A stretch of DNA of 40,667 bases from an uncultured Clostridia bacterium (lineage in GTDB: Bacteria > Bacillota > Clostridia > Christensenellales > Borkfalkiaceae): NCBI GenBank assembly GCA_947175325.1, contig CAMWME010000013.1:1-40667 (forward strand), in the 5' to 3' direction. Below are positions 7,606-24,300 of the stretch, in pieces (position 1 is the first letter of the stretch; the number at the start of each line of letters is the position of its first letter). Position numbers and translations under genes: made by a program. The notes beneath the pieces were generated by a model. That model made no database searches and was not told the DNA's origin. It worked only from the letters and a program-made list of their open reading frames with translations.

Positions 7606-9531
7606 TTAATCTAATTCGAAGGCGCCGGTGTAGAGCTGATAATACTTACCCTTTTGGGCAATTAACTGCTCGTGATTGCCGCGCTCGATAATTTCGCCTT
7701 GCTCCAAAACCATAATTGCGTGGCTGTTGCGGACGGTGGAAAGTCTGTGCGCGATTACGAAAACCGTTCTGCCTTCCATAAGTTTATCCATACCTTGCTC
7801 GATAAGCTTTTCCGTTCTGGTATCAATGGACGAAGTTGCTTCGTCAAGAATGAGTACGGGGCATTCAGAAACCATAGCGCGGGCTATTGCCAAAAGCTGC
7901 CTTTGACCTTGCGAAAGGTTTGCGCCGTCGCCCGTAATCATAGTGTCGTACTTTTCGGGCAAGTGCTTTATAAACGAGTGCGCGTTGGCAAGGCGTGCGG
8001 CGTTGATGCACTCTTCGTCGGTAGCGTCAAGTCTGCCGTAACGGATATTTTCCATAACGGTGCCCGTAAAGAGGTGCGTATCTTGCAATACTACGCCCAA
8101 GCTCTTTCTTAAATCGTCTTTCTTTATTGACTTAATATCAAGCCCGTCGTAGGTTATAGAGCCCGACTGAATGTCGTAGAAACGGTTGATAAGGTTGGTT
8201 ATCGTAGTCTTGCCCGCACCGGTAGAACCTACGAAGGCTATTTTTTGACCGGGCTTTGCGTAGAGGCTGATATTCTTTAAAATTACCTTTTCTTCGGTGT
8301 AGCCGAAAACTACGTTTTCGAACTTTATATCGCCTTTAAGGGGAATATAATCGAAGGTGCCGTTGGGATTGGGTTTCTTCCACGCCCATTTACCTTCTTC
8401 CATTTCGCCGTAGGTTATCGTTACGTCACCGCCCTCGTCTTCGGGTTCGGTATCGACCATTTCGAAAATTCGCTCTGCACCCGCAAGCGCCATAACTATT
8501 GCGTTAAACTGCTGGGTAACTTGTTGAATGGGCATATTGAACTGTCTTGAAAAGGCAAGGAAGGAAACGAGCATGCCGGCACAAGCGGCAGTTCCCGCAA
8601 GTCCTTTTGCACTGAGATAGCCCGACAAAAGCCAAGCTTGATTGCCTGTGATGACCAAAATGAACCCGACGACCGCGACCAAGACGTATTGAAGGTAACC
8701 CAAATTGTTGCTTACGGGCCCCAAAATAAACGCGTTAGCGTTAGCTTGCTTTCCAGCCTCGTTCAACTCGTCGTTGAGCTTTTTGAACTCTTCACGCGCT
8801 TTTTGCTCGTGACAGAAAACTTTAATAACCTTTTGACCTTCAGTCATTTCTTCAACGTAGCCGTTGAGCTTACCCAACGCAGTTTGGTTTTTAGAATAGT
8901 ATTTAGCCGACTTCGAGCCTATGCTCTTTATCGTAAACATCATCACCACGAACACGCAGAGAATGACCACCGTAAGCGTAAAGCTGAATACTATCATCAG
9001 TACGAATACGAATAGGAACGTAAGAAACGAGGATATCAACTGCGGTATCGTCTGCGACAAAAGCTGACGCATGGTGTCGACGTCGTTGGTGTAAAGACTC
9101 ATCGTATCGCCGTGCGTGTGCGTATCGAAGTATTTCAAAGGCAAACGCTGCATCTTTGTAAACATTTCGTCACGCATTTTCTTAATAGTGCCTTGTGCGA
9201 TAAACATCATTATTCTGTTGTACGCAAAGGAAGAAAGCCCACCCGCAACGTATACGCACGCCATAACGATTATATTCGTATAAATGATGTCCATATCAAT
9301 TACGGGATTTTCGGGAGTAATAATTAGTTCGTTTACGGTAGGGGCGAAGAACGCCGCGCCGATTGCCGTTGCTCCCGCCGACAAAAGTACGAACAATACG
9401 ACGAACGCCATTGCAATCTTATAACGCGAAAATGCGTAAGATAAAAGTCTTTTCAAGGTTTTCATAGGGGCTTTTGCGCGCTTGCCGTCGCCCCTCATAC
9501 CGCCGTGCGGAGATGACATTGCTCTTGCCAT
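7606..9531 (-). CDS. ABC exporter half-transporter, subunit with catalytic NBD
   Basis: This 641-residue ABC exporter fuses a six-helix membrane domain to an ATPase and should work with the upstream gene as a heterodimer exporting lipids, drugs or peptides. The N-terminal about 30 residues are a cytosolic tail. The membrane domain runs to about residue 370, followed by a family-typical insert containing KWAWKKPNPNG. The NBD has Walker A GSTGAGKTT, a signature reading LSQGQ, Walker B LILDEATSSID with the catalytic Glu, and switch VIAHRLSTV. LSQGQ plus the partner's altered site match the TM287/TM288 arrangement, in which this is the TM288-like half. A strong AAGGAGGTG sits 9-10 bases before the ATG, whose A overlaps the partner's stop. 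Substrate unknown. Confidence 0.93.
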   Translation of the reverse strand: MARAMSSPHGGMRGDGKRAKAPMKTLKRLLSYAFSRYKIAMAFVVLFVLLSAGATAIGAAFFAPTVNELIITPENPVIDMDIIYTNIIVMACVYVAGGLSSFAYNRIMMFIAQGTIKKMRDEMFTKMQRLPLKYFDTHTHGDTMSLYTNDVDTMRQLLSQTIPQLISSFLTFLFVFVLMIVFSFTLTVVILCVFVVMMFTIKSIGSKSAKYYSKNQTALGKLNGYVEEMTEGQKVIKVFCHEQKAREEFKKLNDELNEAGKQANANAFILGPVSNNLGYLQYVLVAVVGFILVITGNQAWLLSGYLSAKGLAGTAACAGMLVSFLAFSRQFNMPIQQVTQQFNAIVMALAGAERIFEMVDTEPEDEGGDVTITYGEMEEGKWAWKKPNPNGTFDYIPLKGDIKFENVVFGYTEEKVILKNISLYAKPGQKIAFVGSTGAGKTTITNLINRFYDIQSGSITYDGLDIKSIKKDDLRKSLGVVLQDTHLFTGTVMENIRYGRLDATDEECINAARLANAHSFIKHLPEKYDTMITGDGANLSQGQRQLLAIARAMVSECPVLILDEATSSIDTRTEKLIEQGMDKLMEGRTVFVIAHRLSTVRNSHAIMVLEQGEIIERGNHEQLIAQKGKYYQLYTGAFELD

Positions 9532-11288
9532 TATTCTTCACCTCCTTTCACTTGCGACTCGTAAACTTCACGGTAAATTTCATTCGTTTTCATAAGCTCG
9601 CTATGCGTACCGATTCCCGAAATTTCACCGTCGTCCAAAACAATAATTTTATCCGCATCTTCAACGGAAGCAATGCGCTGGGCGATTATTATTTTCGTAA
9701 TATCGGGCGCGTACTTTCTGAGCGCGTCCCTTATCTGCGCGTCGGTTTTGGTATCGACTGCCGAGGTTGAATCATCGAAGATGATTACGTTGGGCTTTTT
9801 AAGAAGGGCGCGGGCGATACACAGTCTCTGCTTCTGCCCGCCCGAAACGTTTACGCCGCCTTGGCCCAAATCGTAATTATAACCGCCGGGGAGCGCGTCG
9901 ATAAATTCTTCGGCGCATGCTTGCCTTGCGGCAAAGCGCAAATCCTCGTCGGTGGCGTTCTCGTCACCCCAGCGAAGGTTTTCCGCTACCGTGCCCGAGA
10001 ATAAGACGTTCTTTTGCAAAACCATTGCAACTTTATTGCGGAGGGTGTTCATATCGTAATTTTTTACGTCAACCCCGCCCACTTTAACCGTGCCTTGCGT
10101 CGTGTCGTAAAGTCTTGGAATAAGGGAAACGAGGGAAGTTTTGCCCGAACCCGTTGCACCGATTATTCCAACCGTTTCACCCGAATTTATGGTAAAATTC
10201 AAGTTGGAAAGCACGCTTACGTCTGCTTTTTGCGAATATGCAAAATCTACGTTTTCAAACTCGATAGAACCGTCTTTTACTTCGTAAACGGGGGCTTCGG
10301 GCTTAGGCAAAGTCGTTTTTTCGTTCAAGACCTCGCAAATTCTTTCCATACTGCCCCTTGACAGTGAAATGAAATTCAAGCACATTGCAACCATCATAAC
10401 TCCCGAAAGAATTTGCATGGCGTAAATATTCAAGGTCTGCAAATCTTTTGCGGATACGTTGCCGACAACGGTGCCCAAAACCATATTTGAGCCAAGCGAC
10501 CAAATTATGATTATTACCGCATACATGACGATGCTTACACAAGGCATCATAAACGTCAGAATTTTTTCGGCTTTTACAGAGTATTTATACACCTCTTCGG
10601 TGGCGTATTTCATTTTTTCGATTTCTTTGTCTTCCCTCACGTAAGATTTAACCACGCGGATGGCCGTTAAATCTTCTTGCACGACGGAATTGAGATTATC
10701 GTACTTTTTAAACATAGTTTTAAAGTGCGGGATAACCTTAAACATACAAACGAACACTATCAGTCCGAGAACTATTGCGCCGCCGACGAAAATTAGCGCC
10801 ATCTTCCACTCAATAAGACACGTCATAACAATCGACGCAACGAAAAGAATGGGCGCACGCACCAGCATTCTTATGCACATCTGATAAGCGTTCTGCACGT
10901 TTGTAACGTCGGTGGTAATTCTGGTAATAAGGCTTGAGGTTGAGAAGTTGTCTATATTTGCGAACGAATAAGTTTGAATATTATTGTACATATCCTCCCT
11001 TAAATTATGTGCAAAGCCGCAGCTTGCCTTTGCGGAAAGCTTACCGCCTACTACTCCGCAGAAAAGTGCAAATAATGCACATACTACCATTGCTACGAAA
11101 TAGAGGATAATTTTCGTAACGTCAATCGCGTAGCTTGCATCGCCCGATAAGGATTCCAGCTCTCCGATAATAAAAGTCATAATATAAGGAATCATTATTT
11201 CCATGGCGGCCTCGCCGACCATAACGATCGGGCAGAGGATTGACGGAAGCTTATATTCCCTTACGCTCTTCAATAAAGTCTTTATCAT
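9531..11288 (-). CDS. ABC exporter half-transporter, subunit with degenerate NBD
   Basis: The first gene of the exporter operon encodes 585 residues with six membrane helices, then an ATPase domain with Walker A GATGSGKTS, intact signature VSGGQ, Walker B IIFDDSTSAVD (Asp instead of the catalytic Glu) and switch IIAQRIASV (Gln instead of His). These are the hallmarks of the inactive site in heterodimeric exporters such as TM287 and BmrC-type proteins. I use the ATG at 11288: AGGAG at 11298-11294 overlaps the upstream in-frame GTG at 11294 and is correctly spaced for the ATG. The promoter is a TTGACT-N18-TATAAT. No regulator gene adjoins. Confidence 0.92.
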   Translation of the reverse strand: MIKTLLKSVREYKLPSILCPIVMVGEAAMEIMIPYIMTFIIGELESLSGDASYAIDVTKIILYFVAMVVCALFALFCGVVGGKLSAKASCGFAHNLREDMYNNIQTYSFANIDNFSTSSLITRITTDVTNVQNAYQMCIRMLVRAPILFVASIVMTCLIEWKMALIFVGGAIVLGLIVFVCMFKVIPHFKTMFKKYDNLNSVVQEDLTAIRVVKSYVREDKEIEKMKYATEEVYKYSVKAEKILTFMMPCVSIVMYAVIIIIWSLGSNMVLGTVVGNVSAKDLQTLNIYAMQILSGVMMVAMCLNFISLSRGSMERICEVLNEKTTLPKPEAPVYEVKDGSIEFENVDFAYSQKADVSVLSNLNFTINSGETVGIIGATGSGKTSLVSLIPRLYDTTQGTVKVGGVDVKNYDMNTLRNKVAMVLQKNVLFSGTVAENLRWGDENATDEDLRFAARQACAEEFIDALPGGYNYDLGQGGVNVSGGQKQRLCIARALLKKPNVIIFDDSTSAVDTKTDAQIRDALRKYAPDITKIIIAQRIASVEDADKIIVLDDGEISGIGTHSELMKTNEIYREVYESQVKGGEE

Positions 11289-11332
11289 GCACACTCCTAT
11301 CCGCTTAAATTTTCACTGCATTTTTACAAGAT

Positions 11333-11499: not shown

Positions 11500-11529
11500 T
11501 TGACTTACACTATTATAATAATATATAAT
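11500..11529 (+). promoter_or_regulatory. SigA-type promoter of first surface lipoprotein
   Basis: TTGACT at 11500-11505, 18-base spacer, TATAAT at 11524-11529, about 70 bases before the ATG. AGAGGTG at 11587-11593 is the ribosome site. Confidence 0.7.
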
Positions 11530-11599: not shown

Positions 11600-14500
11600 A
11601 TGAAAAGACTGAAATCCCTCCTTTCGGCGGCTTTAGTGGCTTTGCTGTCGGCGGCGTTGATTTTGCCGCTTGCGGCTTGCAACGAAGACGACAAACCCGC
11701 CGGCGAAGGTACCAACGCGGTTTACGTAGCTTCTATGGGCGGAATGGCGCTTCCTAACGTTACCGTTGAACTTTTGAAGGACGGTTCAAGCGTCAGTGCT
11801 ACTAAGACGGACGAAGAAGGTAAAGTTACCTATAATCTTAGCAGCGATGCAAAATACGAGGTTAAGCTTTCGGACGTGCCCGTAGGTTTTATCGTTAAAA
11901 ACAACTATGAGGTAAAAAGCTCTGACAAAGAGACCCGCATCAACTTGGATTCTCACATAATTACCGATGGTACGCCGGCTAACTTGTATCAGACGGGCGA
12001 CGTTTTGTACGACTTTAAGGAAACTTATTTCACGTACAACCCCGACGGCAGCGAACCCAAGCAAAGAGAGGCAAAGCTTTCGGAGTTCTTCGACGAGGGC
12101 AAAAAAGCCGTGCTTATAAACTTCTTCTATATCGGTTGCTCGAACTGCAAGGACGAATACCCTTATTTGCGCGACGCTTACAAGAAGTATGCCAACGACT
12201 TGCAAGTAATCGGCATTAACGATATCGACCCCATTTCGTCGGGTCTGTCCGGAGAAACCGAGCCGGGCGTAAAAAACCTTGTACAAAGCGATAAGGTGCC
12301 TTACCTTATGTGCTATGACGACGGGTCGTTAATAGGCAGATATTTCAAGAATTTCGTATCGGGATACCCCACTTCGATTATGATTGACAGATACGGCATT
12401 TTGTGCGAAGTGCTGTTAGGCAAAAACGAGTCGCAAGCGTTCTGGGAAACTTGGTTTGAAAAATATATAAGCGACGATTACTCGCAAAACGTAGATAAGG
12501 GCGAAGACCCCGGCGTAGCATTCAAACCCGAATTACCTGGCGACCACGTAAGTATACCCGATTCAACGGAGCTTACGGCCAAGGTTAGCCCTAAAATAAA
12601 CAATACCGGCAAAAACATACTTTTCAGCGTAGATACTTCTAACAGCAGCTACGGCTGGCCTTGGGATTTGACTGCCGACCAAACGGCAATTTACCCCACC
12701 AACAGCGGATATCAAGGTACGATGGCAACCATCTACGCGCAGATAGACCTTGAAAAAGACGAAGTTTTGGCGTTTGACTATAAGCTTTCTACTATGCAAG
12801 GAAGCGACTACTTCTACGTTTCGGTAGACTCACGCGAAGGCACCGGACGTCAGCTTTCGATGACCTCGGGCGTTCAAGATTGGCAGACGGGATATTCCTA
12901 CGCCGCACTTGAAGCGGGCAGACACGAAATAGAATTTACCTATTACCGCTCCACTGCCGCGTTAAATAATCTTGAAGATAAGGTTTATATAAAGAACCTA
13001 AGAATAGTTACCGTTGAGGAAATGAATGAAAAACTTATTGCAAGGAAAGAAACGTATGAAATTCCTTATCTTGCAACGAGAAACTACAACAACAAGACTA
13101 AGCAATTTGAAAACATTGAGAACGTTTACGTTGCAGAAGACGGTTACTATCATATCGGAACCGAAGATAAGGCAACGAAAAACGACCCTTATCTTTTGTT
13201 GGACGTAACCCACTCTACCCCTTACTTCAGCAAAAACTCTGAAAGCTTATACACGTTAATGAATTCAGAGATTGCTTTAAACGGCGCTATGTATATCGAC
13301 GACGAAGATTACACGGATACGTTTAGGTCATACCTTTCCTACTCAACCAACTCGGATTATCCGGGCCTTATACCGATAAATGCGGACATACAAGCAACTA
13401 TTTCCGCACTTTATAAGGATAATATACCTAAGGGTGCTCCCTATTACAGTAAAGACGGCTGGTTGCAGTTCTGCGTATATTACAAGCAGTACGGTGTTCA
13501 GCAAGAACTTTCCGACCCCATTAAGGGCTTGGCTTACTTCTCCGCATTCAAAGCGAATGAAACTACCGGTCAAGAAAACTTCATAGAAGTTGAAAAAGGA
13601 ACAGGGCAATATATGCTCGATACCGAAACGGGACACTTCGTTGACGTTGAAGGAACGAAACTGAAGGACGAAGGCAATTACGATTTGAACCCTAACATTA
13701 ACAAAGTTAGCGTCGACAAAGTAACGAATCCTCGCGGACTTTTGTATGCGTTCACTCCCACTAAATCGGGCGTTTACAGCTTCAACGGAATTGACTGCTA
13801 TTATTACAACGACGACGATGACGTAATAGACGATGAAGCAACCGACGCTGACTTTTATGACGGCAACTTAAATCTTTCAACCGCGTACGCGAATCCTATT
13901 GCGTCAAGCGGCCCCGACAGATACGAGAGAAACGATATTCCGAAAAGTTTCAAAATCGTTCACTATTTAGAAGCGGGCAAAACCTATTACATTAGCGTTT
14001 ACTTCCGCGTATTTGAAACGACGGGCGACTTCGCGTTCAGAATTGATTATTTGGGTGAAGAATTCAGCTATATTCATCAAGCAGCCGTTGACGGTTATAC
14101 TGTAGACTTGCAAAGCTACAAACTCTTACTCCCCATCTACTGCGAACCTACTTTCGACGATACTCATACCTACGACTACGGCGGCGATATCGGCGTACAA
14201 CCGGTTTGGTACGACGGCAACGGCGGCGGAATGATATTCGTTGACTTCACGCAGTTATCGCTGATGTTCGACTACACGATAGAGCAAGTTCTTAACGACG
14301 ACTTTAAGTCTTCGCAATTTACTTTCGATATTGCAAAGAAAACTTATACCGACGATAACGGCACAACGTACGATATTGCTTTAGACCTTGTAAAACGGTA
14401 CGGCAAAGAGGAAAATATTCCCGATACGTTGAAAGAAGTATTGAAGGATTACCCCATTGCCGACTATACCGACACTATGAGGTACTACCTTGAAAAATCG

Positions 14501-14689
14501 AAAGAGGGCAAAGAAGTTACGGACGAGGAATACGGACTGTTACCCGTTAACAAAGAGTTGTACAGTATACTTCAACTATACCACACTAAGTTCGCGGGTT
14601 TCGACAACCAAAACGAATGGCTTAAGGCGTGCTGCTTCCGTTTGGTTATAAACGAGAACAACCCTAGCTATATATTGAAATTACAGTAA
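11600..14689 (+). CDS. Large surface lipoprotein with CnaB-like, TlpA/thioredoxin-like and repeated W-L-x-x-C modules
   Basis: The 1029-residue exported lipoprotein has a signal peptide ending LPLAAC (lipid Cys27). Residues about 38-115 look like a prealbumin/CnaB-type beta-sandwich. Residues about 125-290 are a TlpA/redoxin fold with INFFYIGCSNC (C180, C183), GINDIDP and a cis-Pro-type YPTSIMIDRYG. About 310-500 is a jelly-roll-like carbohydrate- or adhesin-type region. Two copies of an unrecognised module follow, centred on residues 571-628 and 956-1015, each with YTDT..., G-L-x-P-x-N and W-L-x-x-C. Between them is a PPC-like beta domain (FTPTKSGVYSF). The protein has many Asp/Tyr and several extra cysteines. 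It probably takes or gives electrons outside the membrane, with the convergent polyferredoxin-TlpA operon as likely partner (inference). A hairpin separates it from the next lipoprotein. Confidence 0.82.
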   Translation: MKRLKSLLSAALVALLSAALILPLAACNEDDKPAGEGTNAVYVASMGGMALPNVTVELLKDGSSVSATKTDEEGKVTYNLSSDAKYEVKLSDVPVGFIVKNNYEVKSSDKETRINLDSHIITDGTPANLYQTGDVLYDFKETYFTYNPDGSEPKQREAKLSEFFDEGKKAVLINFFYIGCSNCKDEYPYLRDAYKKYANDLQVIGINDIDPISSGLSGETEPGVKNLVQSDKVPYLMCYDDGSLIGRYFKNFVSGYPTSIMIDRYGILCEVLLGKNESQAFWETWFEKYISDDYSQNVDKGEDPGVAFKPELPGDHVSIPDSTELTAKVSPKINNTGKNILFSVDTSNSSYGWPWDLTADQTAIYPTNSGYQGTMATIYAQIDLEKDEVLAFDYKLSTMQGSDYFYVSVDSREGTGRQLSMTSGVQDWQTGYSYAALEAGRHEIEFTYYRSTAALNNLEDKVYIKNLRIVTVEEMNEKLIARKETYEIPYLATRNYNNKTKQFENIENVYVAEDGYYHIGTEDKATKNDPYLLLDVTHSTPYFSKNSESLYTLMNSEIALNGAMYIDDEDYTDTFRSYLSYSTNSDYPGLIPINADIQATISALYKDNIPKGAPYYSKDGWLQFCVYYKQYGVQQELSDPIKGLAYFSAFKANETTGQENFIEVEKGTGQYMLDTETGHFVDVEGTKLKDEGNYDLNPNINKVSVDKVTNPRGLLYAFTPTKSGVYSFNGIDCYYYNDDDDVIDDEATDADFYDGNLNLSTAYANPIASSGPDRYERNDIPKSFKIVHYLEAGKTYYISVYFRVFETTGDFAFRIDYLGEEFSYIHQAAVDGYTVDLQSYKLLLPIYCEPTFDDTHTYDYGGDIGVQPVWYDGNGGGMIFVDFTQLSLMFDYTIEQVLNDDFKSSQFTFDIAKKTYTDDNGTTYDIALDLVKRYGKEENIPDTLKEVLKDYPIADYTDTMRYYLEKSKEGKEVTDEEYGLLPVNKELYSILQLYHTKFAGFDNQNEWLKACCFRLVINENNPSYILKLQ

Positions 14690-14696
14690 CTGAAGT

Positions 14697-14720
14697 CCCC
14701 CGTACTTCACGGTACGGGGG
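14697..14720 (+). terminator. Hairpin between lipoprotein genes 1 and 2 (weak terminator or processing site)
   Basis: CCCCCGTAC (14697-14705) pairs with GTACGGGGG (14712-14720) around a 6-base loop. It is followed by AAATCTTTT, a poor T-tract. No promoter is seen before lipoprotein 2, so partial read-through or RNA processing would set the ratio of the two. Confidence 0.6.
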
Positions 14721-14748
14721 AAATCTTTTAAAATATCAGAGGTAAAAA

Positions 14749-16749
14749 ATGAAAACGAAATTTAAATTACTTATCGTTCTGCTTGCGACCTTTTGCCTAA
14801 GCTTGGATTGCGGCTTGATTGCGGCGTGCAAGGAACCCGATAACACCGTGGATTACGGTGACCCCGCAAAGGACGGCTATATCATAACGGTGCTCTATCC
14901 CGACGGGTCAAAAGTTAAAGGTACCGACAGCTCTGACCCCCACGGCAAGGTATACGTTGAATTGGTTGACGCCGAAGGGAACTTGGTTGACCCCAGCGCT
15001 ACGTCGAACCTTAACGAAGACGGTATTGCACAGATAAATTACTACGTACCCGGAGAATACTTTATTCAGATATACGACTACCCCGAGGGCTACGCTTTTG
15101 ACAATACTTCGGTTAAAACCTCCGCTGACAGAGCGCGTTATACCGTAAGCTTGGAGCTTGACGCCCCCACCCCCTACACTGTGAACTTAGAGTATTTCAA
15201 CGAAGACCCTATTCCGGGTGTTACCGTTAAGCTTATGAACGGAACGAATACCGTTGCAACTGCAGTGACAAACGAAAACGGAGCTGCCGTTACCTCCACT
15301 ATAGTTCGCGGAAAATACGATATAGTGCTTGAAAATATGCCCGAAGGCTACGGCTATAAAAAAGCAACCACCACCGTTGCCGCATGGCCCGTAACCGTAA
15401 CTGCCGTAGTATTAAAAGATATCAATTTTGATAAGGCACACAAACTTGACGAAGACGGCGTTGCAGTTTGGGACGAGGCGCTTAACGATTATTATTTAAG
15501 TACTAAAAGGTTTGATAAAACCGGCGACTGCTACGTCTACACAGCAGAATTTGCAGCTAAAGAAGAAGTTTTCTTTAAGATACACGCACCTAAGACGGGC
15601 TCCTACACGATAGGCTCGAAGAAAGGTAACGATTACGTAATTCAATTCTACAGCAACGATTTGACCTACGTTGACGACAGCTTGACGATTTCGAGCAAGG
15701 AAAACGACGGCAATAACGTTCAAAATATGCGAATTAACGATGGCGAAACTCTTATCTTCTCGGTTAAGTCAGCAGCCCGCAAAGCCGGCACGGTTGAGGT
15801 TCTCGTCTGCTTGCCCGTGCCCGAGCCTATAGTGACCACTGCTACCAAGGCAGACACTTACACTTTATACTTTAACGACTATAACACTGCATATCTTAAC
15901 TTCATTACCAGTGCTGGCATCGGAGCGGGCAAGTACGAAATCACCTCCCTTTCCGACACTTACGACGTTATGATAGTTGAGTACGTCAACGGTTACCCTA
16001 TGGAAGACGCTAACAGCGATTTGCCCGCACCTTACGAGGGATACGCCGGCAACGACAACGGCGCAAAAGACGGACGGAACTTCGTTCATACCAAAAACTT
16101 AACCGTCAGCTACGTCGGCAATACCTTCCAATACCACATTATTATAAAGGACGAGATTATCAACTACCCCGTTACGATAGACGTTAAAATCGAAAGAACG
16201 GGCGACGCCGACAAAGAAATCGAGGTTACAAAGAATACCGCTGAGGCGCACGTTGATACGAAGTACGCCGACCAAGAAGGCACATTTACTTGGATGCCTA
16301 CGGACGGTTCATTAGAGCCTTACAGAAAGGATGACGGGAATTGGTACGTTAACGTAAACGGCGAAGAAAAAGCGTTGGTTGTGGCTATAACCAAAACTAT
16401 TCGCAGCCAAGTATACTCGTTTGCAAACATTGAGTATTTCGGTGAAGAAAGCGGTGAAGACAGCAAGCCTACACCTCATAGACAAAATACCAATCTTACG
16501 GTTTACGAAGATTTGACAACTTTAGATACGACGTGGAACTACACCGGCTTCATTGAAAAGTATGCCGGCTACAAGGACTCCGACGGAGTTGAACACGAAG
16601 GCTTTGTAAACAGCGACGGCGTTTATCAAGTTAACGACGAGTTGAAGCTGTTCCTTGAACGGTATATGAACCAGCATCACAGCAATATTACCGGCAGTAC
16701 GATTGCCCCCGCACAACCTTGGCTTTTGGGTTGCGGATATTATGCATAA
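14749..16749 (+). CDS. Surface lipoprotein with two CnaB-like repeats and a C-terminal W-L-x-x-C module
   Basis: The 666-residue protein has a signal peptide ending LIAAC (lipid Cys27). Two prealbumin-like repeats follow, about residues 44-140 and 142-225, both with the pattern G-x-V-x-V-x-L followed by E-N/D-G-x-A and a closing P-E-G-Y, in the style of the surface CnaB/SpaA folds. Two larger beta domains (about 230-350 and 360-500) look like PPC or carbohydrate-binding sandwiches (APKTGSYTIGS). The C-terminal about 130 residues match the module of the first lipoprotein: NYTGFIEKY (from about 597), GVYQVNDEL (624-632) and PWLLGCGYYA at the very end. There is no thioredoxin motif. AGAGGT precedes the start. 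The role is unknown; cell-surface display and a partnership with its neighbours are inferred. Confidence 0.8.
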   Translation: MKTKFKLLIVLLATFCLSLDCGLIAACKEPDNTVDYGDPAKDGYIITVLYPDGSKVKGTDSSDPHGKVYVELVDAEGNLVDPSATSNLNEDGIAQINYYVPGEYFIQIYDYPEGYAFDNTSVKTSADRARYTVSLELDAPTPYTVNLEYFNEDPIPGVTVKLMNGTNTVATAVTNENGAAVTSTIVRGKYDIVLENMPEGYGYKKATTTVAAWPVTVTAVVLKDINFDKAHKLDEDGVAVWDEALNDYYLSTKRFDKTGDCYVYTAEFAAKEEVFFKIHAPKTGSYTIGSKKGNDYVIQFYSNDLTYVDDSLTISSKENDGNNVQNMRINDGETLIFSVKSAARKAGTVEVLVCLPVPEPIVTTATKADTYTLYFNDYNTAYLNFITSAGIGAGKYEITSLSDTYDVMIVEYVNGYPMEDANSDLPAPYEGYAGNDNGAKDGRNFVHTKNLTVSYVGNTFQYHIIIKDEIINYPVTIDVKIERTGDADKEIEVTKNTAEAHVDTKYADQEGTFTWMPTDGSLEPYRKDDGNWYVNVNGEEKALVVAITKTIRSQVYSFANIEYFGEESGEDSKPTPHRQNTNLTVYEDLTTLDTTWNYTGFIEKYAGYKDSDGVEHEGFVNSDGVYQVNDELKLFLERYMNQHHSNITGSTIAPAQPWLLGCGYYA

Positions 16750-16770
16750 AAGCTAACTTACTAAAACGGC

Positions 16771-16802
16771 AAATCCGCCCGCGCATTTGCGCGGGCGGAT
16801 TT
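16771..16802 (+). terminator. Strong intrinsic terminator after lipoprotein 2
   Basis: AAATCCGCCCGCGC pairs perfectly with GCGCGGGCGGATTT around loop ATTT. It ends the lipoprotein 1-2 transcript. The remaining 158 bases to the next gene are AT-rich and hold its promoter. Confidence 0.9.
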
Positions 16803-16892
16803 ATATTATACAATTAATATTCATAAATATACAATTATCACTATTTTATGCAAATATAACTGCATTTTTTTACATTATCCGTTTAAAATCGT

Positions 16893-16921
16893 TTGCAAAT
16901 TGCATAAACTAATGTTAAAAT
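16893..16921 (+). promoter_or_regulatory. Candidate SigA promoter of lipoprotein 3
   Basis: TTGCAA (16893-16898), 17-base spacer, TAAAAT (16916-16921). GGAGG at 16949-16953 is an ideal ribosome site 7 bases before the ATG. Confidence 0.6.
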
Positions 16922-16960
16922 AAATTTATTAAATTTAAAAAATTTTTTGGAGGTATTACT

Positions 16961-18604
16961 ATGAGTAAATACTTAAAGAGTCTTATAACTGCTTGCTTAG
17001 TCATTTGCATGACGGTTTGCCTCGGAATTTTCGCGGCAGCTTGCACCGGCGGTTCAGAAGGCGGCGACGGCGGCGAAACCACCCTCCCCACTTCCGTAAG
17101 TGTAACCGTATTGCTTGACGACGGCACACCCGCTGTTGGCGTATCCGTACAGATTTGTACTGTAAGCGACGACGGCACTGCGAACACCGCAAACTGCAAA
17201 TTGCCGAAAGCGACGGACGCGCAAGGCGTTGCAACCATTGATATTGCTAAGACTGACGGAAACAATTTCGAAGTTCACGTTTTGAGCATTCCCGATACTT
17301 ACGCATATTATTCGTACGTTGACGCAAACGGAACCCCTTATGCAGAAGGCACCGGCGCACGCGTTGATATTACGAAATCTGCTAAAGTAACCGTTAAGCT
17401 TGCAGTCGTTTCTATTACGGATAAGCTTTCCGAAGGAACCAATATCGTTAAACTTGACGCTATCACCGATACGCTTACAGTAAAAGCAAATATCGAAAGC
17501 GCGGGTTGGTACAAGGTAACTTCTTATACTAACGCATTCTTGCTTTCCGGAACGGGCTTTAATCTTACGAACGATAATAACGAGGTTAACCTTTATCTTA
17601 ACCCCAACGACGAATTGACCTTCAGCTTTGTTGAAACCGAAGAACCCGAGCTTTTATTCACCGTAGGCTTGGCAGCACATGAAGCTGACGGTACCGAAGA
17701 TAAACCCTTACCCGCAGTTATCGGTTCACAATACGTTATTTCTCTTGCAGCAGAGGGAACCGTTTATATAACCAACGATACCGTTAACAGCAGAGCTGCG
17801 GCAGCGTTAGACGTTACCGGAAACAACTTCTACGTAGTGTACGGGGAAGAGATTTATTACAATGAAGCCTTCACCCTTAATGCACCCGAAACCGACGGTG
17901 ATAAGCTCGTTCCCGAAACGATTGAAGTTAGCACTGCAGAAGGCGATGCGGGCGTTGTAACGCTTTACTTTGCCGAGCACGTTGACGGTGGCGATACATC
18001 TGACCTTCCTGCTTTAACGCTTGACAAAAGCGTAACTATTTCCGGTGCAGATTTCTTTACAGCTGTAACTTACACTTTGACGATAGAAGAAGACGGTGCT
18101 TATCTTTTTGATACTGAGATTGCAGAAGCGGATATTATTATTAATACTTTCTTAGAGAACGGCGCAGCTTCTATGGATAACGCCTTGGAAGCTACCAACG
18201 GTGCTTACACCCTTACGGCTGGAACGTATTACGTAAGCTTCTATAACAATGGTCCGGTTAAAGTTTCTTGGACTGAAGGCGGCGAAGGCCCCGGCCCCAA
18301 CTTACCCATTATACCCGATGACCCCGACTATCCCGAATTAACGGTAGGAGAAGAAATAACCATAACCGAATTCAACGGCTCCGAAGCATATTACAGCCTT
18401 GTTCTTACTGAGGAAACGAATTTCATTGGTACGGCTAATACGTTCGTTAGCATTGAAAACGCCGATTACAGCGCCTTTGCGAGCATATTTGTCAACAGTC
18501 CCAGTGAATTTACTCTTCCCGCAGGCACTTATAAAGTAACCGTTTATAACGAAGACGGTTTAGAATCTGTTACGTTAAAGATTGAGGTAAAGACCGAGGC
18601 ATAA
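16961..18604 (+). CDS. Surface lipoprotein with CnaB-like N-terminus and beta-sandwich repeats
   Basis: The 547-residue protein has a signal peptide ending IFAAAC (lipid Cys28) and a Gly-rich linker. A prealbumin/CnaB-like domain (about 45-150) has VTVLLDDGTPAVGVSVQIC and the ATDAQGVATIDI turn, resembling the N-terminal domains of the two lipoproteins before it. This domain also carries two cysteines (in VQIC and NCKLPK) that could form a disulfide. Three or four all-beta segments follow (about 155-235, 245-345, 350-440, 455-547). They share ADIIINTF- and TAGTYYVSFYNNGP-like strands, typical of PPC-type modules, and a Gly/Pro linker at about 442-462. It has no catalytic motif. It has its own promoter and terminator. 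The role is unknown; a relative of the two upstream lipoproteins by domain make-up. Confidence 0.78.
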   Translation: MSKYLKSLITACLVICMTVCLGIFAAACTGGSEGGDGGETTLPTSVSVTVLLDDGTPAVGVSVQICTVSDDGTANTANCKLPKATDAQGVATIDIAKTDGNNFEVHVLSIPDTYAYYSYVDANGTPYAEGTGARVDITKSAKVTVKLAVVSITDKLSEGTNIVKLDAITDTLTVKANIESAGWYKVTSYTNAFLLSGTGFNLTNDNNEVNLYLNPNDELTFSFVETEEPELLFTVGLAAHEADGTEDKPLPAVIGSQYVISLAAEGTVYITNDTVNSRAAAALDVTGNNFYVVYGEEIYYNEAFTLNAPETDGDKLVPETIEVSTAEGDAGVVTLYFAEHVDGGDTSDLPALTLDKSVTISGADFFTAVTYTLTIEEDGAYLFDTEIAEADIIINTFLENGAASMDNALEATNGAYTLTAGTYYVSFYNNGPVKVSWTEGGEGPGPNLPIIPDDPDYPELTVGEEITITEFNGSEAYYSLVLTEETNFIGTANTFVSIENADYSAFASIFVNSPSEFTLPAGTYKVTVYNEDGLESVTLKIEVKTEA

Positions 18605-18623
18605 AAACACAAAACAACAAAAT

Positions 18624-18656
18624 AAAAAACGCGGCTGAAATTCAGCCGCGTTTTTT
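18624..18656. terminator. Bidirectional terminator between lipoprotein 3 and redox operon
   Basis: AAAAAACGCGGCTG (18624-18637) pairs with CAGCCGCGTTTTTT (18643-18656) around a 5-base loop. It overlaps the last bases of the minus-strand gene's stop. Confidence 0.92.
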
Positions 18657-20397
18657 AATTATTTAAAACTTTAAGCATTTCTTCTTCGAGCGAATCGTAA
18701 GTTACGGAACCGGGACGAATATAAGCTATTTTACCTTCCTTATCTATGATAGCCGTATGAGGTAAAGTGTTACCACCGCTCAACGCCTTATAAAGTTCGG
18801 TCTGTCTTGAAATTTCAACGACCTCGCCGTCTACTTCCTCTTGGCTAATTACCGTTGCTAAGGTTTCCGTATCTTGTGCGAAAAGCATTTGATATTCATT
18901 CCAACCTTTATCGTTAAGAAACTTTTGAACGCCGTTTGTTCCACCGTCCACCGTAATAGCCGTGCTATGCAAAGCTATAACGACGATGTCTTCACTGTAA
19001 TTTTGTTGCAGCTGTTCAAAGTAAGGTATTTCTCCTACGCAAGGATTGCACCACGTTGCCCAGAAGTTTATAACCACTACCTTGCCCTCGTAATCGGAAA
19101 GGTTGAAGGTCTTTTCCTCTTCCGTGTTATAAAGCTGAGCGGAGAACTGAGGACACTCGTCTAACGAAATACGCTCCTCGTAAGGTGCAAAGAAATTGTA
19201 GTAAACTAACGCTGAAATTAAAAGTACCGTTGCAAGCGCCCAAGCCGCAATTTCAAGCCATTTGTTGCGCCGCTTGAGTCTTGCCACCGCGGGGCTTTCA
19301 ATGGGCTTTGAAGCCGTATTTAAATCGTTTTCGGAAGTAGGTACTTGCTCTACCGTTTGCGGTTCTTCTACCGCCACTGCCATTGCCGCTATCGAGTTGA
19401 CGGAAGTAACTTCCGCTTCCTCCGAAAGCTGAGCCGTGGTGCCCTTCTCTAAAATAGAGTTTAAAGTGGGTTGCGCTTCCTCTTCTTTTTCTATTGCATT
19501 GGAGTGAAGGAAGATTTTGGAGCCTTTCCAGCTAATCGCTTGCGTGGGACATACCGAAATACATTCGCCGCAGTTGATACATTCGTGGTCGCCGACGTGC
19601 TTGATATCCATTTTACAGTGGCTTACGCACAGTCCGCAGTCAGTACATTTAGATTTATCCAGTTTTACGCCAAGCAGCGCAAACTTGTTGAAGAAGCCGT
19701 ATATTGCACCGAGCGGGCACAAGAACCTACAGAAGAAGCGGAAACAGAACACTGACATAACGATTATTGCAACCATTAAGCAGAATTTCCAAGTGAAAAG
19801 CGTGCCGAGCTGTGCAAAGTAGTTACTGCCCCCAGTGGCGTTATTGGGGTTGATTAATAGCCCTATCGCGCCGCCGAAGGTTCCCGCGGGGCATATGTAT
19901 TTACAGAACGTGGGCGACTGTAACATTATCGGAATAATGATAACCAGCGCAACCAACAAAACGTATTTTAAATACGAGAATGCTCTTGAAACCCTACTCT
20001 TCTTTATCTTCGGGGTTTTTATTTTATACAGAAGCTCTTGCCCCAAACCTACCGGACACAAGAAGCCGCAAATGGTTCTTGCAAATATTATTGCAAACAG
20101 TGCAAGTATGCCTAAAACGTAGTACGGGGCTTTGGTGTCCGACGCTTGCAACGCGTTTTGTAACGCCCCCAACGGGCACGCGCCCGTAGCACCCGGGCAA
20201 GAATAACAGTTCAACCCCGGTACGCATGCGTACTTAGTACCGTTTTTAGCGTTATAAATGCTACCCGTTACGAAGCCCTTTATGTTGGCGTTATACAGCA
20301 GCGCGGCGTAAACTTGGATAAGCCGCCTTTTACTTGGCTTGTGCCGCACGAACCAATCTTTAATTTTTATGAAAAAATTCTTAAATTTTGTCTTCAT
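18655..20397 (-). CDS. NapH-like membrane polyferredoxin fused to extracytoplasmic TlpA-type thioredoxin
   Basis: The 580-residue protein joins an electron-input membrane module to an outer disulfide reductase. The N-part has CVPGLNCYSCPGATGACPLG, CGFLCPVG, CKYICPAG and CRFLCPLG, the CxxxCP motifs of NapH/YccM-type proteins, set among three or four hydrophobic helices. Two ferredoxin motifs follow (CTDCGLCVSHC, CINCGECISVCP) on the predicted cytosolic side. An acidic linker of about 75 residues leads to another membrane helix (WALATVLLISALVYY), then a TlpA domain with NFWATWCNPC (C450, C453) and a cis-Pro TLPHTAII loop. I start at the ATG at 20397, 1 base after the upstream stop, rather than the TTG at 20406. 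Relatives usually encode the two halves as separate genes. It would move electrons from cytosol to outside thiols. The electron donor is unknown. Confidence 0.88.
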   Translation of the reverse strand: MKTKFKNFFIKIKDWFVRHKPSKRRLIQVYAALLYNANIKGFVTGSIYNAKNGTKYACVPGLNCYSCPGATGACPLGALQNALQASDTKAPYYVLGILALFAIIFARTICGFLCPVGLGQELLYKIKTPKIKKSRVSRAFSYLKYVLLVALVIIIPIMLQSPTFCKYICPAGTFGGAIGLLINPNNATGGSNYFAQLGTLFTWKFCLMVAIIVMSVFCFRFFCRFLCPLGAIYGFFNKFALLGVKLDKSKCTDCGLCVSHCKMDIKHVGDHECINCGECISVCPTQAISWKGSKIFLHSNAIEKEEEAQPTLNSILEKGTTAQLSEEAEVTSVNSIAAMAVAVEEPQTVEQVPTSENDLNTASKPIESPAVARLKRRNKWLEIAAWALATVLLISALVYYNFFAPYEERISLDECPQFSAQLYNTEEEKTFNLSDYEGKVVVINFWATWCNPCVGEIPYFEQLQQNYSEDIVVIALHSTAITVDGGTNGVQKFLNDKGWNEYQMLFAQDTETLATVISQEEVDGEVVEISRQTELYKALSGGNTLPHTAIIDKEGKIAYIRPGSVTYDSLEEEMLKVLNN

Positions 20398-20398
20398 T

Positions 20399-21217
20399 TT
20401 AACCAAGACCTATACATTCGGTACAAATATTAATCGCTTTGATTAAAACGTCGTGTGCGCCTTCGTTGAAAATACCGAGGATAATAAACGTTACGGCGAT
20501 AGCCGCTACGCCCGACCTTATGCCGAGCAAGGTGTATTTGTTAGAGAAAAACTTTTTTAAGGCCGCTAAAACCTTGTTGGGCTTTATATCGGCTTTTATT
20601 ACGGGGTTACCTTTATACGACGAAATAAGGCGCTTGATTGCGCTTATTTCACAAAGTTGGCTGTACTTTTCGAATACGGTTGCAAAAACGCAGCTTAAAA
20701 GCGCAACGACTACGCAAGGCAGAACCCAAAGCATCATTTTAAACATTGCGTCGTTTGCCGCCAAGCCCTTGAAGTTTGCGGGTTGCAACAGATAAATTGC
20801 ACTTGCCACGGCGCACGCAAAGCAAATTGCGGCGCAGACGATATATACGATAAGGCGGTTGCGGTTTTCGTCGCGCACGCGCTTCATTTCACCGTCGTAA
20901 GCCTCTCCACTGCCTTCGGGGATACGGGCTTTTAAACGCCTTAACGTTGCCCCCTCTTGGGGAATTTTAACGGCTTTATCCTTATAAGGATAAACGAGCG
21001 ATAAAACGAAGCCCGCAATTATCGCCGCTATCCAGATATAGAACGGTATCGAAACGGGGAAAAGGCGTTCGGCAACGATATCTCTTGAATAAGCGCCTTG
21101 CGCCCAATTGCCGTCGCTGAGAATGCTGATTGCAACTGCGATAAAGGCGGCGCCGAGAACTGCCGTGAATACGCTTAAAAATATTCCGTAATATAAGCGG
21201 ATTTTCTGTGCTTTCAC
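20399..21217 (-). CDS. Polytopic membrane protein with C-terminal CD1871A-like CxxC tail
   Basis: The 272-residue protein has about five or six hydrophobic helices (around residues 8-30, 57-77, 121-145, 158-182 and 228-250) and ends in INICTECIGLG (C265, C268). That ending, with the preceding helix, matches the small CD1871A family, whose members are usually free-standing, about 50 residues long, and encoded beside 4Fe-4S and TlpA genes. Here the tail is fused to a longer membrane domain that I do not recognise. The GTG start is supported by GGGAGG 8 bases upstream. It is first in the operon and ends 1 base before the polyferredoxin-TlpA start. The CxxC is a likely electron relay (inference). 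Confidence 0.78.
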   Translation of the reverse strand: MKAQKIRLYYGIFLSVFTAVLGAAFIAVAISILSDGNWAQGAYSRDIVAERLFPVSIPFYIWIAAIIAGFVLSLVYPYKDKAVKIPQEGATLRRLKARIPEGSGEAYDGEMKRVRDENRNRLIVYIVCAAICFACAVASAIYLLQPANFKGLAANDAMFKMMLWVLPCVVVALLSCVFATVFEKYSQLCEISAIKRLISSYKGNPVIKADIKPNKVLAALKKFFSNKYTLLGIRSGVAAIAVTFIILGIFNEGAHDVLIKAINICTECIGLG

Positions 21218-21248
21218 TTTTTTACCTCCCGTTTTTCTATACTATATT

Positions 21249-21277
21249 ATTATAATAGAAAGTACTTATACAGTCAA
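21249..21277 (-). promoter_or_regulatory. SigA promoter of redox operon
   Basis: Minus-strand TTGACT (21277-21272), 17-base spacer, TATAAT (21254-21249), about 32 bases before the GTG start. It is a near-consensus promoter with no obvious operator. Confidence 0.82.
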
Positions 21278-21357: not shown

Positions 21358-24300
21358 TTAATCTTCCCAGTCGCTTGCAAGGCGAGGATATTCGCCGTCC
21401 ACTGCTACCCACGCAGTCCAACCGTCAAAGGTTGCCGCCGAAGTAATTTGAGCTTCGGTTATATCCGTACCCTTGGGAGATGCAATTACACTGCTGTCCG
21501 CACGGTAAGAAAGCAACGTCGGGAAAGCACCGCCGTCAGCGCCCGCGAAAGATGCAAACGTACCGCCCTTATTGTTGGGATTATGCGTAACGACTAAAAC
21601 GTTTTCTATCGTACCGCCCGCTATATGGTTAGCCAATGCGGGAGACGTGCCGTTGCAATGTTCGCCGAAAGTAACGTCGAAATAGCAGTTTCTAATTACC
21701 CCGCCGATGGTGTGATGCCCGAGTATACCGTATGCCACGTCGTTATTATCCAAAGTGCAGACGAATTTAACGTTTTCGATTGCGCTGTTATCCAGATTGT
21801 ACATAATCAACGCGTTCGTTACGAAGTTGCTTACCGTATATCCGTGTCCGTTAAATACTGCGTGATAGTCATCCCTCTGCTTGTTTACAACCGCACCGTT
21901 CAAATCGAGGTCGTGCGCCAAATAATAGTTGCCGCCACCGCTACTCCAAACGTTCTTGAAAGTAGTCAAATCGTAAACAGCAGTCCAAGCACCGGTTGCG
22001 GTGAAGGCGTTTACTTCACAAGTCACTTTGTAATCAACGCCGTCCAAGGTATAGGTTGCGGTAATAACTGCTTTACCCTCGCCGGCAACGTTAAGACTAC
22101 CCGTGTAGCCGCCGTCCGCGTCGTAGCCGGCAGTAATTCCGCTAACGACCGCCGTATTGCTTGAATTCCATACGATATCTGCGGCTGTAGGGCTTGCGGG
22201 CATATTGTCCAAAGTTACGTGTAGTATGCGTGCAGCCGAAGCTTCGCCAACTTTAAGCGACGCTTTTGTTGCGTCAATGCTCATTTCGACTTTTGCTTCG
22301 ATTGCGTTTACCGTTACGTCTTTGTAAACTGCTGTTACGTCGGTGTAAGAAACGGATGAGGTTACGCGTACAGTTGCAGTGCCGTCGCCCGTTGCGATAA
22401 TTTTGCCGTTTTCGATGGAAACTCCGTTACCGCTTACTACCGACAAGGTAAGTTCACCCTTGCTTGCCGTTGCAATATCCGAAGCACTGAGCGAGTTGCC
22501 GGTGAATACGCTAAAGCTTTCGGCTTTGAGAGTGATTACTACGGGAACGTACGTTACGGTTACTTTACAAGTTGCCGTCGCATAGGTGCCGCTGCCGCCG
22601 TCGTCGTTGGAGGTTGCGGTTATATTCGCAGTTCCGTTCACGCCGTGGGTGGTAACTTTACCGTTTTGGTCAACGGTTGCAACGCTTGTATTGGACGAAG
22701 CCCACGTTACGCCGCTATCAGAGTTGCCCACGGTTGCCGTAAGAGTTGCCGTAGCGTCCCTATCAAGTGTAAGCGTAGTATCGGAAAGTTCAACCGTAAT
22801 TACGATGGTTGCCTTTACTTGGATAGTGATACTGTCGTACTTGGTATTGTCGTTTACCGAGCGGGCTGTGATGGTTACCGTGCCCGCGCCGACTGCCGTT
22901 ACCAGTCCGTTTGAAACGGTTGCAACGCTGCTACTAGAAGTTTCCCAAGTAACGTCGCCGCAGTTTACTGTTGCGTTAAGTTGTTTGGTTGCGTTAATTT
23001 TAAGCTCTGAAATTTTGTCTTCGGCATTGATGGAAATTTCAATTGCCTTTACCGTTACGGTGCAAGTTGCAACGACGGTTTCGTCTTTTAACGAAACTGC
23101 TTTTATGGTAACGGTGCCCGCCTTCTTCGCGGTAACTACTCCGTTTGCAACGGCTGCAAGCGTGGAGTCTTCGGAAACCCACTTAATTGCGCGCTCTTCT
23201 ACGGTGAGTTCGGTAGGGGTTACCGTTGCGGTAAGTGTTAACGTTTCGCCTACGAAAAGCTCACCGGAAGTTTTATCAAGCTTAATCTTTAAAGGCTCGG
23301 TTACGAGCGCGCCTTTAAGCACGGGCATTTGACCGTCAATAATTACCCAACCCTCTTCCCAGCTTTCGTCAAAGGTTGCCGCCGATTTAAGCTGAGCTTC
23401 TGTCTTTTCCGTTGCGCCGTTGGTTGCGGAATACGAGCCGTTACCCTTTAACAAGAATACGTTTTCAACCGTGCCGTTATTGGGGCTTTCGAACCAAGCG
23501 GGGAATTTTTGACCGCTAACGTCAGCCTCACAAGAAACTTTTACGATTACGTTTCTCATCGTGCCGTTGTTGTTATGGTGTACCAAAGCGCATTGGTTTG
23601 CACTGCCCGAGAAGGTTATATCGAAGATACAGTTTTCAACCGTGCCGTCCACCGCGCCTATCCACGTACCGAACAAGCCGTCAAAGTTGCCGGTGCCGTT
23701 CAATACGCAAGAAATTTCTATATTTTTTACGTAGCCTTGGAGCTGTGTGAAAAGTTTAGGCGTTTTGAAGTTGCTTACTTTATAACCCAAACCGTTTATT
23801 TTTGCAAAATCGTTAAACGTGTTTACCGTTTCGCCGCCAAGGTCTATATCGTTTACGATATAGTAAGTGCCGTTGCCGATAGATTTAAACTGTTCGGGCG
23901 TTGAAACTTCGGTTGCTCCCGCCGCCTTTTCGTAGACGTGGATTACCATCGTTGCGGTCTTCTCGCCTACCTTTGCGGTAATGACGGTTTTACCTACCGC
24001 TACGCCGCTTACGACGCCGCTTGCGTTAACGGTTGCAACGGAGGTATTGCTTGAAGTCCAGCTTACGCTTCCGCCCAAAGCCTTATAATCTATCTGATAA
24101 GTTCCGCCGACGCTTACCGAACGAGCCGAAAGTCCAAGCTCGATATGTCCGTCACCGTACACGGTAAGAGTTACGCTGTCGGTTGCGGTTTTGCCGTTGT
24201 CGGTTGTAAAGGTTGCGGTAACGGTTACTTCGCCTTCGCTTATTGCCGTTACCTTTCCGTTTGCGACTGTTGCAACGGAGCTATCCGAAGAAGTCCAAGC

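Follow-up and report, generated by a model that had tools for sequence, protein, structure and literature searches.

We analysed a 40,667-nucleotide stretch of contig CAMWME010000013.1 (assembly GCA_947175325.1; an uncultured Clostridia bacterium of the Borkfalkiaceae), referred to here as the window, and focused on the locus at positions 11600–21217, whose five genes are all open reading frames (Table 1). On the minus strand, a gene for a CD1871A-type membrane protein is followed by a gene for a NapH-like polyferredoxin with a C-terminal TlpA domain (polyferredoxin–TlpA), and the two form one operon; on the plus strand, three successive genes encode the lipoproteins LpTlp, Lp2, and Lp3 and converge on the minus-strand pair. 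An operon joining a CxxC-tailed membrane protein to such a fusion had been proposed in an earlier reading of this DNA (the original prediction), and the reading frames together with the NCBIfam NF040920 and Pfam matches bear it out. The two operon genes overlap by 8 bases if the second begins at a TTG codon, and are separated by 1 base if it begins at the in-frame ATG three codons on, at 20397. This ATG is probably the start, giving a protein of 580 rather than 583 residues, in agreement with the 580-residue database protein P0001. The TlpA cysteines C450 and C453 of the original prediction fit the ATG start and are C453 and C456 when counted from the TTG, as they are below.

Table 1. Features of the locus in the window, followed by proteins noted in other loci (L numbers)
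Feature	Position	Strand	Basis
CD1871A-type membrane protein, 272 residues	20399..21217	-	NF040920 match, hydropathy
NapH-like polyferredoxin with C-terminal TlpA domain	18655..20406	-	Pfam, NCBIfam, alignment, model
LpTlp, 1029-residue lipoprotein	11600..14689	+	Pfam, alignment, model
Lp2, 666-residue lipoprotein	14749..16749	+	Pfam, comparison with relatives
Lp3, 547-residue lipoprotein	16961..18604	+	comparison with relatives
Promoter-like TTGACT-18-TATAAT before LpTlp	11500..11529	+	11 of 12 consensus matches only
Promoter-like TTGACT-17-TATAAT before CD1871A-type gene	21249..21277	-	11 of 12 consensus matches only
Terminator-like hairpin, 16 pairs, between the converging gene sets, usable from both sides	18623..18657		pattern match
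Polyferredoxin–TlpA proteins with extra TlpA-like stretch	L042 7808-9943; L046 10024-12138; L048 7289-9466; L050 7733-9913		
CnaB–TlpA proteins with CxxC-rich repeats	L261 2174-3991; L264 6771-8228; L184 252-1880		
Protein of 83–110 residues	L046 8877-9209; L030 10802-11056; L052 8826-9077; L040 7584-7844		

The CD1871A-type protein contains five hydrophobic segments in a hydropathy scan, and its last 36 or so residues form a CD1871A-type tail that ends in CTECIGLG. The 272-residue protein belongs to the NCBIfam family CD1871A_fam (NF040920), which it matches through this tail at 37.9 bits against a cut-off of 32. Both tail cysteines are invariant, in 19 of 19 rows of one alignment and in 21 of 21 rows of another (the window and 20 of 58 sequences), and the remainder of the protein is poorly conserved. 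Because a segment rich in lysine and arginine precedes the last helix, the tail would lie outside the membrane by the positive-inside rule. The CD1871A domain was found in 26 of the 61 relatives searched (22 of 37 in the genus, our own included, and 4 of 24 in other families), and the frames that carry it differ in size, being 177–362 residues long in the genus and 51–79 residues long in the four other matching genomes. The family name was not found in the open-licence PMC literature.

The polyferredoxin–TlpA protein matches Fer4_5 (PF12801) at 62 bits against a cut-off of 22, as well as Fer4_7, Redoxin, and AhpC-TSA, likewise above their cut-offs. With Fer4_5, CX3CP motifs, and two C-terminal 4Fe-4S motifs it qualifies as a NapH-like membrane ferredoxin, and it falls outside the curated NapH/MauN subfamily TIGR02163 (68.4 bits against 213). 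As described in one source, the CX3CP motifs of NapH and NosR are functionally important and their cofactor is unsettled (PMC5928378). We found 20 cysteines invariant in all 42 rows of an alignment of the window with 41 of 77 fused loci: eight in the two 4Fe-4S motifs, ten in the membrane part, and C453/C456 in the TlpA domain. The 18 that belong to the N-terminal part are likewise invariant in all nine rows of a set that takes in unfused homologues from other families. The positive-inside rule would put the two CX3CP motifs on the inner face of the membrane and the six further membrane cysteines on the outer face. Most blocks of the TlpA domain of the fusion were modelled well: from residue 421 on, 12 of the 17 ten-residue blocks reach a predicted local distance difference test score (pLDDT) of at least 85. 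The domain model matches ResA. Active sites of the CGPC/CDPC/CTPC type occur among the alignment rows. Relatives of the fusion are common in databases, with 5509 of the 7999 scored candidates reaching E <= 1e-30, some of which may not be fusions; the 120 relatives listed carry Fer4_5 and redoxin-type domains, most of them without a protein name, and among the matches listed one source uses the name ferredoxin/thiol-disulfide isomerase/thioredoxin. Some relatives, of 704–726 residues, have in the alignment an extra TlpA-like stretch that lacks the cysteine pair and precedes the active one.

LpTlp contains the lipobox cysteine C27, a CnaB-like domain at about residues 40–118 (SpaA at 22.5 bits, just below the cut-off of 23.1), a ResA-like CSNC domain at about 129–292 with the pair C180/C183 (AhpC-TSA at 36.8 bits, cut-off 26), a beta-sandwich at about 320–477, and a further C-terminal part with C625. 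The CSNC domain is predicted to adopt a ResA-like thioredoxin fold, so that the TlpA-like domain proposed for the convergent lipoprotein holds up in both the Pfam match and the model. C180, C183, E186, P188, and P257 are invariant in 31 of 31 LpTlp rows, giving a CxxCxxExP signature and a later proline, and C625 is kept in 26 of the 31; these rows are the window and 30 loci, two of 32 candidates (L125 and L150) having been dropped for an LpTlp incomplete at the stretch end, and another alignment omits the incomplete LpTlp of L050 and L053. ResA ranks first for the CSNC domain by profile and by fold alignment, with peroxiredoxins at lower rank. LpTlp is not ResA proper, as it reaches 37.7 bits against 170 for the NCBIfam ResA model, and its own genome has no PF01578 match. 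The fold matches of whole LpTlp are filled by the thioredoxin domain, and the C-terminal domains are therefore barely probed; the TlpA domain of DipZ was matched by sequence, yet it is not among the 50 fold matches listed for LpTlp.

Lp2 has two SpaA/CnaB-like stretches and a C-terminal WLxxC motif, and the N-terminal 120–150 residues of Lp3 match small CnaB-type lipoproteins encoded at the same place in several relatives. Both are cysteine-bearing surface lipoproteins, as had been predicted: their cysteines are few, some lie outside the lipobox, and none form a CxxC pair beyond the signal peptide. Lp2 C662 and Lp3 C66/C79 are conserved in all four rows aligned, one of which is the window's. 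Most of the genus loci read have additional lipoproteins grouped with LpTlp. In some CnaB–TlpA proteins the long C-terminal part is missing, and the N terminus has repeats with many CxxC pairs (ATC...CSVCG type).

To place the locus among its relatives we used a genus set of 61 genomes (G numbers), calling polyferredoxin–TlpA at E <= 1e-100 and LpTlp at E <= 1e-90. Both genes are present in 36 genomes, one only in 3, and neither in 22. Polyferredoxin–TlpA occurs alone in G013, which has a shorter CnaB–TlpA protein, and LpTlp occurs alone in G005 and G061, whose contigs end within the lipoprotein cluster. The two genes converge on one contig within 6.1 kb in 26 of the 36 genomes that have both, and a contig end cuts the locus on the polyferredoxin side in a further eight (G012, G018, G019, G020, G032, G072, G073, and G074). 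As both the arrangement and the redox cysteines are conserved in relatives, the arrangement in the window is not due to chance. Among 297 genomes of the order, a strong LpTlp match (E <= 1e-85, a strict threshold chosen since looser ones also catch stand-alone TlpA partners) is present in 24, and 23 of these have the polyferredoxin at E <= 1e-130; in the exception, G323, the contig ends within the lipoprotein cluster. The polyferredoxin at that threshold is found in 36 of the 297, and 13 of these are without LpTlp at E <= 1e-85.

Gene order was compared in the named loci, the best 80 of 580, of which 77 have a polyferredoxin–TlpA frame (none was called in L152, L172, and L191); the genus loci L030–L054 overlap some of them, and counts are given per set. 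LpTlp is present in 32 named loci and is convergent in 25, divergent upstream in four (in records named Oscillospiraceae, Oscillibacter, or Clostridia), and co-directional upstream in three. In L261 and L264 a CnaB–TlpA protein lies downstream of the polyferredoxin in the same direction, and in L256 the CD1871A, polyferredoxin, and TlpA parts are three separate adjacent genes, with a convergent LpTlp about 7 kb on. That the same partners recur in different gene orders argues for a working link between them. On a one-gene Spo0A tree of 49 of the 61 genus genomes (12 were left out for want of a strong full Spo0A match), the presence of the operon needs nine changes, seven of them forced by starred branches, and LpTlp goes the same way as the operon in 7.0 of 7 independent pairs (mean of 200 pairings; median p 0.016). 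Fisher values for the co-occurrence of genes take no account of kinship. The genes, their domains and conserved cysteines, their linkage, and their co-inheritance are direct observations. The conserved neighbourhood and the thioredoxin/ResA fold predicted for the CSNC domain lend good support, at the level of sequence comparison, to a ferredoxin-to-surface thiol route as a conserved unit.

In relatives the operon has a further neighbour. A divergent SDH_alpha protein of about 430 residues is encoded beside it in 13 of the 77 named loci (62–85% identity to the L040 protein, one being a fragment), and its only PDB matches are L-cysteine desulfidase (E 4e-31 to 9he0 for the L129 protein). The L129 and L040 proteins match PF03313 at 202.7 and 212.2 bits against a cut-off of 26.4, and the protein, for which there is no NCBIfam match, is predicted to be an L-cysteine desulfidase, an enzyme that converts cysteine to pyruvate, ammonia, and sulfide. 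The genome of the window has its own copy (E 1.8e-232 to the desulfidase alignment). Within the genus the desulfidase is present in 32 of 37 carriers of polyferredoxin–TlpA, two as fragments, vs 2 of 24 non-carriers (Fisher 7.7e-10), and it goes the same way as the operon in 6.3 of 7 independent pairs, with none opposite (median p 0.031). An oligopeptide transporter also adjoins the operon in relatives, with a solute-binding protein, two permeases, and two ATPases (by Pfam on L046 only), and in 13 of the 77 named loci, judged by at least OppC and OppD matches, it is found upstream of the operon with the same orientation. A protein of 83–110 residues with a hydrophobic end is encoded last in the transporter operon, before the CD1871A-type gene; the copy in L046 matches no Pfam or NCBIfam family.

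DsbD_TM (PF02683, the sole DsbD_TM model searched) was not found in 59 of the 61 genus genomes and is present in two, as against 10 of 14 controls; it is not among the Pfam matches of the locus proteins up to E 0.1, and the genome of the window has no PF02683 match, PF13386 lying outside the genome search. With DsbD_TM in just two of 61 genomes, the operon is the sole candidate that our search, which covered no other carrier families, gave for the outward transfer of thiol electrons.

These findings lead us to favour, with modest confidence, the view that a ferredoxin-driven transmembrane thiol reductase is encoded here, one that fills the role of DsbD/CcdA with other parts, most likely for the use of cystine or other disulfides. 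Ferredoxin or flavodoxin, as a low-potential donor in the cytosol, would load both cytosolic 4Fe-4S sites in the polyferredoxin, and electrons would cross the membrane through cysteines placed at its inner face (C113/C117 and C226/C230) and at its outer face (C61/C67/C70/C77 and C168/C172). The CTEC tail of the CD1871A-type protein, followed by the tethered TlpA domain (C453/C456), would convert the electrons to a dithiol, and the TlpA domain would in turn reduce C180/C183 of LpTlp. The CnaB-like domain of this lipid-anchored protein may position its ResA-like domain out in the wall. LpTlp would then reduce external disulfides, the most likely use being that cystine, cystine-containing peptides, or disulfide-bonded proteins are split into thiols. 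Uptake of the thiols, in some relatives through the oligopeptide transporter next to the operon, would be followed by degradation of the cysteine inside the cell by the desulfidase. For Moorella thermoacetica, a cystine reductase activity linked to viologen has been reported, as has the conversion of cysteine to acetate (PMC7835215). More tentatively, extracellular disulfide reduction by ferredoxin may be a nutritional, respiratory-like trait of gut Clostridia, in which an Fe-S wire replaces DsbD/CcdA, cystine and the disulfides of dietary or mucus proteins serve as electron sink and cysteine source, the desulfidase yields pyruvate and sulfide, and pyruvate oxidation regenerates reduced ferredoxin.

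The observations of the original prediction are confirmed by our analysis, and its interpretation is partly supported. Two checks that could have overturned it, on the conservation of the neighbourhood in relatives and on the thioredoxin fold of the CSNC domain, left it standing. It had electrons of cytosolic ferredoxin or flavodoxin reaching the surface CSNC lipoprotein; this stands as far as a conserved unit is concerned (linkage, co-inheritance, invariant cysteines), and the electron flow itself, with its every step, its direction, and its substrate, we infer. It further suggested that the lipoprotein may act on the large beta-sandwich proteins, a target that only adjacency and a few conserved single cysteines favour; the desulfidase and transporter point elsewhere. 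As these two units stand beside the operon in many relatives and the desulfidase is co-inherited with it, our reading shifts to cysteine use.

Several observations weigh against the cystine-reducing route. The conserved neighbourhood called for by the original prediction is found in the genus and not everywhere outside it: of the 41 named loci flanked by more than 6.5 kb on either side, 18 have no nearby LpTlp and 23 have one. A different CnaB/LpTlp-type protein is present in five of the 18. Within the genus 2 of the 36 genomes with both genes carry them unlinked (G069 and G084). The link to cystine is one of gene association, and this association has gaps: five polyferredoxin–TlpA genomes are without the desulfidase (G006, G008, G010, G013, and G017), two have the desulfidase without polyferredoxin–TlpA (G002 and G030), and in the genome of the window the desulfidase lies on another contig (G000:C4). 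The gene sets of the window adjoin a Big_2 protein and two ABC exporters, not the oligopeptide transporter. Lastly, the hydropathy scan missed the first helix, assumed near residues 26–48 of the polyferredoxin, and marked a weak segment at 229–247, which makes the inner and outer placing of its cysteines uncertain, and residues 41–240 of this membrane part were modelled with a pLDDT of 38–86, mostly below 75.

The same route could instead serve the upkeep of the surface, with LpTlp keeping the cysteines of neighbouring lipoproteins and wall proteins reduced or repairing oxidised surface thiols, and with cysteine metabolism a mere correlate. The lipoproteins grouped with LpTlp in most genus loci fit this, and the conserved Lp2 C662, Lp3 C66/C79, and LpTlp C625 are possible clients, but Lp2 and Lp3 of the window offer few cysteines and no CxxC beyond the signal peptide, and upkeep leaves the linkage and co-inheritance of the desulfidase unexplained. 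Repair of methionine sulfoxide by MsrB is an unlikely outlet, MsrB (PF01641) being found in none of the 61 genus genomes and in 10 of 14 controls; for the same reason, a surface repair system of the Etrx–MsrAB2 type is unlikely. We regard upkeep as unlikely but worth keeping in view, and place the reduction of external cystine, peptide, or protein disulfides ahead of it because of the desulfidase and transporter linkage, the co-inheritance of the desulfidase, and the absent partner systems.

A thioredoxin-fold domain can run either way, and external thiols might feed electrons inward via TlpA and the polyferredoxin to make disulfides in secreted proteins. The CxxCxxExP signature and the CGPC/CDPC/CTPC-type sites are, however, those of ResA/TlpA-type reductants, ferredoxin is a poor sink for thiol electrons, and the adjoining lipoproteins in the window provide few cysteines to oxidise; we consider this direction quite improbable, although disulfide formation in Clostridia is called understudied in one source (PMC12453122). 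That AhpC-TSA and Redoxin are the best Pfam matches of the CSNC domain, and that peroxiredoxins appear lower among its fold matches, would suit a surface thiol peroxidase fed by ferredoxin and acting in peroxide defence. Yet the AhpC-TSA and Redoxin models are not specific to this domain, as they match the polyferredoxin TlpA domain too, the invariant pair is a CxxC with the glutamate and proline of the ResA/TlpA type, and ResA ranks first in both comparisons; we consider a peroxidase very improbable. The resemblance of the domains to ResA and StoA of Bacillus raises a role in cytochrome maturation or sporulation, and Spo0A is present in 55 of the 61 genus genomes. But Spo0A occurs with and without the operon, which therefore does not follow it, so that a sporulation link is unlikely, and cytochrome c maturation is unlikely too, with the assembly family PF01578 found in only 1 of 61; we disfavour this reading and give it barely any weight.

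The putative promoters of the two gene sets share an identical 16-mer (11510–11525 on the plus strand and 21243–21258 on the minus strand) that overlaps the -10 region of both and has no exact copy elsewhere in the 1.54 Mb genome. A role as a shared regulatory element was rejected, as the 16-mer is not common to other loci with both upstream regions, where the longest shared word among those reported is 10 bases (L051), and it therefore carries no weight in our reading. Directly upstream of the operon, at 21358–26406 on the minus strand, lies a gene for a 1682-residue lipoprotein-like protein with ten Big_2 stretches, and beyond it VWA, VWA/BatA, and DUF58 proteins are encoded at 26403–31835. 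The two ABC exporter genes (ABC_membrane plus ABC_tran; 9531–11294 and 7606–9531, minus strand) are directly upstream of the LpTlp cluster, and a relative of the first, 72–74% identical, is found near LpTlp in L031 and L044.

To our knowledge, it is an open question by what means reducing power reaches surface thiols in bacteria that lack DsbD or CcdA. The locus names a complete candidate route for surface thiol reduction without these proteins, conserved and co-inherited as a unit in several groups of Clostridia, one of which includes the named strain Pumilibacter muris CLA-AA-M08 (L129), and tied to cysteine breakdown. In L129 the operon lies together with both LpTlp and the desulfidase gene. 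It provides candidate genes for cystine reduction in gut anaerobes and bears on gut cysteine supply and sulfide formation. As the original prediction had supposed, we found no description of this gene set in the open-licence PMC literature, nor one of a NapH-like wire joined to thiols.

Each domain is nevertheless of a known kind, and the nearest described systems are the NapH-like flavinylated systems and DsbD/CcdA. In the former, as set out in a 2021 eLife article, PF12801 proteins occur with flavin mononucleotide (FMN)-binding domains, and a NapH-like membrane Fe-S protein is proposed to pass electrons out of the cell to a redox domain that is modular and extracytosolic; in the passages covered here, thioredoxin-like partners are treated under DsbD and P19, not under the NapH-like systems (PMC8238504). 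In our locus the outer domain is a dithiol TlpA rather than an FMN domain, and further invariant cysteines, which would lie on the outer face, and a CD1871A-type CTEC partner are added; no FMN-binding family is among the Pfam matches of seven window proteins up to E 0.1, ApbE being outside the search. DsbD likewise delivers reducing power through the membrane to an outer domain of the TlpA type, and it too features in the eLife article (PMC8238504), but the operon of the window is without PF02683 and uses an Fe-S ferredoxin-type carrier. The trio of TlpA, CD1871A, and polyferredoxin in other families of the order (L035 and L036) has the same three parts and the same 18 polyferredoxin cysteines, differing in that its TlpA is a separate secreted protein; neither stretch has an LpTlp match by BLAST. 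CcdA and DipZ resemble DsbD in function and differ from the operon in the same way. Pneumococcal Etrx lipoprotein thioredoxins work with CcdA and MsrAB2, and the structures 2yp6, 4hqs, and 4hqz, which we take to be of this type, are among the matches to the TlpA-type domains. Like Etrx, LpTlp would be a surface-exposed TlpA-fold lipoprotein fed by a membrane carrier, and it differs in that the carrier is Fe-S based, MsrB is absent from the genus genomes, and CnaB-like and beta-sandwich domains are added to the thioredoxin fold.

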